Shown here: positions 60,037 through 64,000 of the stretch, piece after piece
Numbering within the stretch: position 1 is the stretch's first letter
How the letters are laid out: every line of letters begins with the position of its first letter
Assembly: GCA_017428765.1 (NCBI GenBank)
Contig: JAFRQF010000035.1
Coordinates: forward strand, 1 to 64,000
Length of the DNA stretch: 64,000 bases
Direction: 5' to 3'
Origin: Erysipelotrichaceae bacterium
GTDB taxonomy: Bacteria; Bacillota_I; Bacilli_A; Erysipelotrichales; Erysipelotrichaceae
Translations under genes and position numbers: made by a program
Notes under the pieces: model-generated
What the model was told of the DNA's origin: nothing
The model's database searches: none
What the model saw: the letters and a program-made list of their open reading frames with translations, nothing else

Positions 60037-60472
60037 GTTAATAGTCTTTCAGATATGTGATGGTATCTTCTTTTTAATAAAAGTGTCAGCTGATCGATCG
60101 GTTTTCTGAATCTTTCATTTCTTTTCGAATGTTGTCCCCATTATAGTATTAGTAAAGAAACGAAAGATACCGGCTATAAAACGCAAAAAATACTTCCTTT
60201 TTTGTTTTATCGTGAAAAAAATATAAGGGAAGAAACAAAACTTATCAGAATGTAACACATCACATTGCGTTTACTCTCGGTACAATGTTTTGTTTCGGAT
60301 GGTACCATATAAGGTATCATAAAGCATATATAAGACTTCAGATGTTTTTTGTTTCGATCTTGATCTTTTTATTTGTCCTTGCTGTTTTTCGTGTAAATAT
60401 CCGTTATGATCTCATCTATCTCTTCATTTTCTTTGTTTTGTTTTACAATTAAAAAAACGGATGGTGAATACT
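60037..60472. other. AT-rich intergenic region with several repeats
   Basis: No convincing gene is seen in these 436 bases. The stretch holds a 10-base inverted repeat (GAAACAAAAC near 60231-60240 and GTTTTGTTTC near 60287-60296) and an imperfect direct repeat (ATGTTTTGTTTCG near 60284; ATGTTTTTTGTTTCG near 60342). A minus-strand TATAAT near 60140-60145 faces the terminator at 60005-60036, which would permit a small RNA of about 130 bases. The part from 60421 on probably contains the promoter of the aminopeptidase gene (TACAAT at 60444-60449). Confidence 0.35.
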
Positions 60473-61744
60473 ATGGTAAAAGATCTTGTTAAGTTTTTAG
60501 ATGAAAGTCCTACAGCCTTCTGTGCTGTTTCTTCCATTAAGAAAAGACTGGAAGAAAAAGGATACCAGAGATTAGGGAATGAAAAGATAGAAAAAGGGAA
60601 GAAATACTATCTTGTAAGAAATGATTCTTCGATCATTGCTTTCAATGTTGGCAAAAGATTGAATGATCCGTCTTTGCATATAACAGCATCCCATACGGAT
60701 TCTCCTTTGTTCAAACTGAAACCGCAACCTCTGATCAAAGAAAAAGGTTCCGTAAGATTCAATATCGAGACCTATGGCGGAATGTTATTGCGCCCATGGT
60801 TTGACCGTCCTTTGAAGCTGGCAGGCAGAGTCATCATAAATAAAGATGATAAGCTCTGCAATGTGATCTTTGATAGTAAAGAACCTTTATGCATGATCCC
60901 TTCGATGGCTCCGCATCTCAGCCGCACAAGAGAAGAAGGAAAGATCGAAGTAGGCAAAGAGATGTATCCGATCATCACATTAGGTGAGGATTTTGACCTT
61001 AACGAATATCTTTCTTCAAAACTGCATTGTGATAAGGACGACATCTTAGGTTTCGATCTGTATGTCGTTCCTTGTGAAAAAGGCTATGTCTGGGGTAAAG
61101 ATGAGGAATTCTTTACGTCCAATCATATCGATAATCTGGAATGCGCCTATACGACATTGATGGGCTTTATCGATAACTTCCATGATGACAATATAAACAT
61201 CTACTGTTCCTTCGATAACGAGGAAGTCGGATCAAGGACAAGACAGGGTGCCGATTCCGATATCTTACAAGGCATTTTAAACCGTTTATGCAAAGATTTG
61301 GATCTGGACGAACAAAGACTCGTCGAAAGGGGAATGATGCTGTCATGTGACAATGCGCATGCCTTACATCCGAATTATGCCGATCTCTATGATCTGAACA
61401 ATGCCCCGATCATGAATGAAGGCGTTGTCATCAAATACAACGCTTCCCAATCCTATACCACGGATTCCTTGAGCGGCGCTTTGTTGAAAACGATACTCAA
61501 GAGAAACGAAATTCCTTGGCAGGTCTTTGCCAATAAGACCGGCACAAGAGGAGGGGGCACGTTAGGAAATATCTCCACAAGCCATGTCTCCATTATGTCT
61601 GCCGATATCGGTCTTGGCCAGTGGGCCATGCATTCACCGATCGAAACGGCCGGATCCAAGGATGTGAATTATATGGTCGATCTGATTAAAGCTTTCTATC
61701 AAAGTCATATCGATATCGATGAACAGGGGAATTACAGCATCTGA
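60473..61744 (+). CDS. M18-family aminopeptidase
   Basis: This 423-residue zinc aminopeptidase has metal ligand His in ASHTDSPLFKLKPQP, Asp/Glu in DNEEVGSRTRQGADS, and ligand-bearing SCDNAHALHPNY and GTRGGGTLGNISTSHVSI. It trims N-terminal, often acidic, residues from peptides. I chose ATG 60473, behind GGATGGTGA; an in-frame ATG at 60461 is possible. The stop shares a base with the next gene. Confidence 0.92.
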   Translation: MVKDLVKFLDESPTAFCAVSSIKKRLEEKGYQRLGNEKIEKGKKYYLVRNDSSIIAFNVGKRLNDPSLHITASHTDSPLFKLKPQPLIKEKGSVRFNIETYGGMLLRPWFDRPLKLAGRVIINKDDKLCNVIFDSKEPLCMIPSMAPHLSRTREEGKIEVGKEMYPIITLGEDFDLNEYLSSKLHCDKDDILGFDLYVVPCEKGYVWGKDEEFFTSNHIDNLECAYTTLMGFIDNFHDDNINIYCSFDNEEVGSRTRQGADSDILQGILNRLCKDLDLDEQRLVERGMMLSCDNAHALHPNYADLYDLNNAPIMNEGVVIKYNASQSYTTDSLSGALLKTILKRNEIPWQVFANKTGTRGGGTLGNISTSHVSIMSADIGLGQWAMHSPIETAGSKDVNYMVDLIKAFYQSHIDIDEQGNYSI

Positions 61745-62611: not shown

Positions 62612-62619
62612 GGAATCAA

Positions 62620-62838
62620 TTCGATGACCGGAAGAGTATTTGAAGGAAGTCCAACAGCGAGCTGAAACAGAGTGGAAGTTCAGCGGCAACCTCTTCTTAG
62701 AAGCGCATCCGGTAGATTCTTATCTGAAAACATAGGATAAGACGTATTTCCGCGTTAAGGATAAGAGGGATCATGTTTTACATGATAATCAGTGTGGTAC
62801 CGCGATATGAGTCGTCTCTGAATGGGGACGGCTTTTTT
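62620..62838 (+). promoter_or_regulatory. T-box riboswitch, specifier read as CGC (Arg)
   Basis: Stem I is closed by ACCGGA (62627-62632) with TCCGGT (62708-62713). AGTA on the 5' side and GAA (62700-62702) on the 3' side form the specifier-loop motif; after one base comes CGC (62704-62706), then A. The T-box sequence AGTGTGGTACCGCG (62791-62804) and a terminator (GTCGTCTC / GGGGACGGC then TTTTTT, ending 62838) follow. Uncharged tRNA-Arg would stabilise the antiterminator. GCG (Ala) would be the reading if offset by one. Confidence 0.9.
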
Positions 62839-62940: not shown

Positions 62941-63909
62941 ATGAAAAAATTAATTAAAGTCTTATTCATAGCTCTTATAACAATTACACTTTGCGCATGC
63001 TCTTCTTCAAATGAAAATACAAGTCCGAAAACGGAATTGGAATTAGTTACGACATTGGATCAGGCGATCCTGGCCTTATCGTCCGGCAAATGTGATGCGG
63101 TCGCATTGGATGGCACGACGGCACAGAACTATGTCGAACAGTCTGGTGGCCAGTTTGCGATGTCAGGCATCAACTTCGATCTGACGATCTATGGCGACTA
63201 CGAAGGAAACGTAGCTGCTGCCAAGAAGGGTGAAACTTCTTTGATGGAAGCGGTCAACACCTGCATCAATACGGCGATGGAAAACGATTATTATCCTTTA
63301 TGGACAGCGATCGCCAAGATACAGTCCGGTACGGAAGATGAAGCGGCATTGAAAGTTGCTGGTGACAATCCGATCTTCCTGGATGTTCCGATCGATGATA
63401 CCTATGCGTATCTTGTCGATACGATTGATCTTGTAAAACCTGAACTTGATCTTTCAGGTGCTGACGGCGTTTTAAAGAAGATCATGGACAGCGGTGAAAT
63501 GGTCATCGCAACATCTCCTGACTATCCGGCAAACGAATTCATCACGGAAGACGGTACGGTCTATGGCTGCGAGATGATGTTAGCCAAATACGTTGCGGAT
63601 TGCTTAGGCGTTAAATTAAAGATCGAAACGATGGACTTCTCTGCGGTACTTACGGCAGTAGATACAGGCAAAGTCGATATGTCTTTCTCAGGATTCGGTT
63701 GGAAGGCAGACAGGGCGGAAGCCTTTGAATTATCCGTCGGTTATGTAGGTGATGACGATGTCACTTTCCATACGCTGATCGTCCCGGCTGACAAAGCCGA
63801 TCAGTACAAGTCTTTACAAGATTTTGTCGGCAAGCACATCATTGCGCAAGCTTCTTCTCTGCAGCAGATGTATGTCGAGGATCAGATCCTGACTCTGGAT
63901 GGTGAATAA
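62941..63909 (+). CDS. amino-acid ABC transporter binding lipoprotein, circularly permuted
   Basis: This 322-residue lipoprotein has a signal peptide and lipobox Cys20 (LCAC). Residues about 35-128 match the C-terminal half of SBP family 3 proteins (VTTLDQAILALSSGKCDAVALD to the YYPLWTAIAKI end). Residues about 185-318 match the N-terminal half (GEMVIATSPDYPANEF, VADCLGVKLKIETMDFSAVLTAV, GKVDMSFSGFGWKADRAEAF, YKSLQDFVGKHIIAQ). A linker of about 55 residues joins the old C- and N-termini, and the new ends fall within the second lobe. The stop overlaps the permease start (TAATG). Arginine is the likely ligand, from the T-box. Confidence 0.85.
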   Translation: MKKLIKVLFIALITITLCACSSSNENTSPKTELELVTTLDQAILALSSGKCDAVALDGTTAQNYVEQSGGQFAMSGINFDLTIYGDYEGNVAAAKKGETSLMEAVNTCINTAMENDYYPLWTAIAKIQSGTEDEAALKVAGDNPIFLDVPIDDTYAYLVDTIDLVKPELDLSGADGVLKKIMDSGEMVIATSPDYPANEFITEDGTVYGCEMMLAKYVADCLGVKLKIETMDFSAVLTAVDTGKVDMSFSGFGWKADRAEAFELSVGYVGDDDVTFHTLIVPADKADQYKSLQDFVGKHIIAQASSLQQMYVEDQILTLDGE

Positions 63910-64000
63910 TGGGTCCGAGTATCATAGATGTATTTCTTGAGTACTGGCCGATGTTTCTGAAGGGTGCCTTAGGCACTCTTCGTTTTGCCGCTATTGCGGT
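63909..64000 (+). CDS. amino-acid ABC transporter permease (partial)
   Basis: The frame starts at ATG 63909, overlapping the binding-protein stop, and runs out of the window. The first residues (MGPSIIDVFLEYWPMFLKGA, then LGTLRFAAIAV) match the N-terminus of HisM/GlnP-type permeases. An ATPase gene probably follows outside the window. Confidence 0.85.
   Translation, partial: MGPSIIDVFLEYWPMFLKGALGTLRFAAIA

Follow-up and report, generated by a model that had tools for sequence, protein, structure and literature searches.

A natural circular permutation in a family-3 amino-acid-binding lipoprotein encoded by a T-box-preceded ABC importer operon of Erysipelotrichaceae

The ABC importer operon at the end of the window, by which we mean the complete 64,000-nucleotide stretch of Erysipelotrichaceae DNA analysed here, opens with a gene for a substrate-binding protein (SBP) in which the two domain halves are encoded in exchanged order. 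This is a natural, genuine and conserved circular permutation of an amino-acid SBP, and it makes the window protein a permuted variant of SBP family 3 rather than a canonical member. We consider it very probable that the gene encodes a naturally permuted family-3 amino-acid-binding lipoprotein that has replaced an SBP of ordinary order in an arginine ABC importer under T-box control. In such a protein, the chain would start at lobe 2 and trace what was once the C-terminal half; a linker would then lead it into the former N-terminal half, and its end would lie in lobe 2 beside its start. The result would be a two-lobe clamp in which ligand residues from both halves meet in one cleft. The positions of the relevant features are listed in Table 1.

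Table 1. Features of the SBP gene and its surroundings, in window coordinates
Feature	Position	Strand	Basis or remark
T-box leader (RF00230)	62615..62822	+	Rfam 116.3 bits, gathering 93; model 1-219/219
Circularly permuted family-3 SBP lipoprotein gene	62941..63909	+	322 aa, stop included
Lipoprotein signal peptide up to lipobox Cys20 (LCAC)	62941..63000	+	Sequence; Cys20 invariant in 28 permuted proteins
Residues 29-122, corresponding to C-terminal half of linear SBP	63025..63306	+	phmmer, relatives, model fold elements
Residues 123-154, tail and linker	63307..63402	+	Comparison with linear relatives
Residues 155-177, corresponding to mature N-terminal extension (TYAYLVDT..KPELDLS) of linear relatives	63403..63471	+	Comparison with relatives
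Residues 178-322, corresponding to N-terminal half	63472..63906	+	Pfam, phmmer, fold match
Start of amino-acid ABC permease (PF00528)	63909..64000	+	Gene extends to contig position 64574; next come the ATPase and the M14 carboxypeptidase

The gene is a single open reading frame from ATG to TAA without internal stops, and its stop codon overlaps the permease ATG at 63909, just as an earlier note on this DNA had remarked. Along the chain, the lipobox cysteine is followed by the C-half, the linker and the N-half, in place of the canonical N-half-first order. Residues 29-122 span the lobe-2 strand onward, including D57, into the C-terminal helices of lobe 1. The segment behind them is homologous to the linear C-terminal tail up to about residue 132 and continues with ~22 new linker residues that have no counterpart in linear proteins. 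Together with the conserved tail and the N-terminal extension, these residues bridge the former chain ends. Residues 178-322 comprise the lobe 1 core, the hinge and the first part of lobe 2, and they end just past the helix QQMYVEDQIL.

Homology searches recovered both halves in this exchanged order. With phmmer, residues 178-316 of the query aligned with residues 5-142 of the Streptococcus pneumoniae SBP 4h5f, whereas residues 28-120 aligned with residues 142-230 of the same chain. When the sequence was rotated in silico, these two stretches merged into one continuous match to 4h5f (query 24-260 to chain 5-230, E 1.7e-26), and the rotated sequence likewise matched TIGR01096 in a single stretch (profile 23-239 of 250). 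This bore out the claims that the half order is swapped behind the lipoprotein signal and that both halves are complete. The profile check proposed for each half was successful for one of them only: Pfam PF00497 covered residues 188-270 (profile 2-84, E 1.6e-19), whereas the C-half searched alone against Pfam gave zero matches and was recovered through 4h5f. Family-3 homology thus extends across both domain halves, by PF00497 for the N-half and by 4h5f for the C-half, and profile-based annotation of such SBPs recognises just one half.

A first structural model, built on an alignment of 28 permuted sequences only, reached a pLDDT of 75 and was poor around residues 251-274 and between the lobes. 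For a later AlphaFold model, the alignment was enlarged by unchanged, unpaired half-length fragments of linear relatives. This model represents one ordered protein (pLDDT 92.7, pTM 0.84), in which the 10-residue blocks of the tail and linker region score between 90 and 94. Its N-half superimposes on the closed, arginine-bound form of Thermotoga maritima ArgBP over 138 residues of both lobes (Z 11.8, 2.2 Å), and on 4h5f over 142 residues (2.4 Å). At the level of the model, the expectation of a single protein and not of two incomplete domains was therefore confirmed, and the window protein is predicted to fold into the two-lobe arginine-binding clamp of its ordinary-order relatives. As had been surmised, the new ends lie within lobe 2: the model places the break between helix 307-319 and strand 32-36, where linear relatives have a loop of 4-10 residues leading from the helix QQMYVEDQI to the strand LELV. 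The helix-to-strand loop of such a sheet faces away from the ligand cleft, and this position off the cleft would explain why the permutation is tolerated.

Two alternative readings of a correctly sequenced gene deserve attention, and one of them concerns the fold. The halves might fail to close within one chain and instead form a domain-swapped dimer, as suggested by permuted constructs of ribose-binding protein that had swapped elements (PMC10601554). We regard such a dimer as unlikely, since the monomer was modelled with confidence and an ordered linker, and since new ends at a short loop would allow an intramolecular fold without strain.

The other reading concerns function and is best weighed against the operon, which has the order T-box, SBP, permease, ATPase and M14 carboxypeptidase, with both the permease and the ATPase belonging to the polar amino-acid type. 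The T-box is a full-length covariance match that includes the antiterminator motif, and its Stem I specifier region, GAAG-CGC-A, presents an arginine codon. Two T-box layouts precede the operon (in the window and in the upstream regions of L006-L060), namely GAA-N-CGC-A/G and GAA-CGU/CGC-G. The extra base N before the codon in the former varies (G, A or C), so that the constant codon is that for arginine in both layouts, and an arginine specifier (CGC or CGU) is present in nearly all T-boxes found. Within the protein, D57 of the first half and D194, F233, S250 and R258 of the second half are invariant among 28 permuted proteins. By analogy with LAO and HisJ, we take these to be ligand-pocket residues, and D57, D194 and R258 align with identical residues of 4h5f. 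Because the arginine specifier, the nearest fold (ArgBP) and these invariant residues agree, our best guess is that the ligand is arginine or a close derivative; for arginine, the ligand named in the earlier note, the T-box specifier is support of an independent kind. Most likely, the window SBP serves as the working arginine receptor of the adjoining importer and would hand arginine over to the adjacent permease.

Alternatively, the protein might fold and yet no longer act as an import receptor, being instead a sensor or scavenger anchored via lobe 2 while another SBP serves the permease. Two loci lend this idea some substance: L031 (4989-6954) carries a permuted and then a linear SBP ahead of one transporter, and L057 (2393-5990) a linear SBP, the transporter and then a permuted SBP, so that the two forms may share a transporter or divide the work between them. 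In the window, however, the permuted gene is the first of the operon and overlaps the start of the permease, the genome has just one other SBP match, which is weak, and the pocket residues are invariant. We therefore assign a sensor or scavenger a low probability and favour the arginine receptor; the presence of both SBP forms beside a single permease-ATPase set in L031 and L057 suggests receptor sharing.

Genes for peptide breakdown lie on both sides of the importer. An M18 aspartyl aminopeptidase-like protein, judged by eye, is encoded upstream of the T-box (window 60461-61744), and an M14 zinc carboxypeptidase is encoded past the ATPase (L028 7318-8997). The latter would fit a release of C-terminal residues from peptides.

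The permuted architecture is widely conserved. The same order, break and linker were observed in ~35 loci from metagenome-assembled genomes of independent projects (RUG, UBA, RGIG, RUI and others), down to ~61% identity. Every relative that turned up is a metagenome-assembled or uncultured record; the loci come from rumen and gut genomes that are mostly labelled Erysipelotrichaceae or Solobacterium. Within the genus, 14 of 36 genomes carry the permuted architecture. Among 392 genomes sampled from the phylum, no further full-length permuted match appeared. The permuted proteins share a common break: they end just past QQMYVEDQ(I/L/V) and restart after the lipobox at (K)TELELV. Furthermore, dN was lower than dS in every segment, with dN values of 0.05-0.15 for the N- and C-halves and of 0.16-0.29 for tail and linker, and a dS that reached ~1 or higher in almost every comparison. 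This indicates that the permuted protein, its linker included, is maintained. The source assembly is a draft in 37 contigs and the relatives are of the kind just described, but the notion that assembly or a frameshift in one metagenome joined two SBP gene fragments has practically no probability left, being refuted by the ~35 loci from independent projects and by an open frame under purifying selection, which also rule out chance and the sequencing error hiding a normal gene order against which the earlier note had cautioned.

How the permuted gene arose can be approached through its ordinary-order orthologs. In loci L065-L076, the two halves of the linear SBP share 65-73% identity with the window protein, and the SBP gene is followed by the same permease and ATPase and usually by the M14 carboxypeptidase. 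The operon context is identical in permuted and linear loci, and the permuted gene therefore occupies the place of the linear one. In a tree of the rotated SBP sequences, the one-clade tree scored 15.5 log units above a free quick search (p-AU 0.75). Permuted SBPs thus fit a single clade and are most simply explained by one derived origin. For the permease and ATPase, in contrast, one clade for the loci labelled permuted was rejected (p-AU 0.0007), mainly owing to the loci with both SBP forms on one transporter and to the placement of the linear loci L079-L088. SBP and transporter histories are hence partly mixed. At residues 3 and 92 of the permease (window 63909-64000 onward; L028 5910-6575), the permuted loci have P3 and E92, and the sister linear group has K3 and V/I92. 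Other linear lineages share P3 and E92, which led us to reject a permutation-specific co-adaptation of the permease.

The leader, the position of the signal peptide and the downstream permease are unaltered, so that a change in place is the simplest route. The SBP gene may have been duplicated in tandem in situ, the tail of the first copy may then have been fused to the mature start of the second, and the first N-half and the last C-half would have been deleted. We infer this duplication route, which had been proposed before as duplication with loss of the outer halves, from the linear orthologs in the same operon and the permuted-linear pair of L031. The intermediate that it implies did not turn up: neither a tandem SBP-SBP ancestor nor a half-deleted form was found in the loci, the 36 genomes of the genus or the 392 genomes of the phylum. 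One long frame of 513 aa in genome G285, considered as a tandem intermediate, is actually an SBP-permease fusion. This frame (L099 291-1829, on G285:C1) joins a linear family-3 SBP and its own permease.

The window protein shares its pocket residues and the predicted two-lobe fold with the linear SBPs of the same operon (L065-L076), with TmArgBP (6ggv/4psh), with 4h5f and with LAO. It differs from linear SBPs by the swapped halves, the new linker, the anchor on lobe 2 and the break after helix QQMYVEDQI. Engineered permuted arginine sensors are laboratory FRET constructs derived from a family-3 SBP. They resemble the window protein in that a family-3 SBP tolerates permutation, but they are laboratory constructs and not natural genes; the title of a work on engineered circularly permuted arginine-binding sensors appears as reference 53 in PMC7683729.

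Naturally permuted SBPs are already known from other families. TpMglB-2 (Tp0684) of Treponema pallidum, described as 'Type Ic / Cluster Bc', is a natural permuted and lipid-anchored ABC SBP that binds its ligand and changes shape (PMC4990184). In contrast to the window protein, it binds sugar, belongs to type I / cluster B and has moved N-lobe strands, and its fold class and break are unrelated. Indeed, all close sequence and fold matches of the window protein are type II amino-acid SBPs rather than type I, MglB-like sugar-binding folds. Circular permutation has also been reported for the glycine-betaine-binding group, including OpuAC of Bacillus subtilis (PMC2395249). With OpuAC, the window protein shares a sequential chain order over both lobes: residues 27-297 of the model align sequentially with residues 39-272 of 2b4l over 210 residues (Z 10.4, 4.8 Å). 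However, OpuAC belongs to another SBP family, binds betaine and is only 11-13% identical, whereas the window protein retains linear orthologs that are ~70% identical; moreover, PF04069, the OpuAC/betaine SBP family, gave no match at E values up to 1. Judged by the model, the window protein has arrived by convergence at the chain order of OpuAC and is not a member of its sequence family. We found no report of a natural circular permutation within SBP family 3 in the literature searched, which does not prove its absence.

The main physical change expected concerns the membrane anchor. Since the break lies in an outer helix-strand loop of lobe 2, the lipid is now attached to lobe 2 and no longer to lobe 1, with a shorter tether, and would pull on lobe 2. 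Linear relatives have a median of ~42 residues between the lipidated cysteine and the lobe-1 core, compared with ~10 residues between this cysteine and the lobe-2 strand in the permuted form. Tentatively, selection on tethering could have driven the permutation to fixation in one clade, with altered importer docking or sharing and a convergence on the OpuAC order, though we consider this less likely than not. The authors of the TpMglB-2 study likewise proposed tethering as a possible cause of permutation (PMC4990184). If this idea is true, the linear orthologs in the same operon would offer a like-for-like test of why SBPs permute.

As a rule, natural permutations come to light only when distant proteins are compared by structure. 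Here, permuted and ordinary forms are still 65-73% identical and occupy the same operon, and both are present in a few genomes, which makes for a clean test case. It renders testable how a permutation arises within a gene and what its effects are on ligand capture, membrane tethering and docking to an ABC importer.
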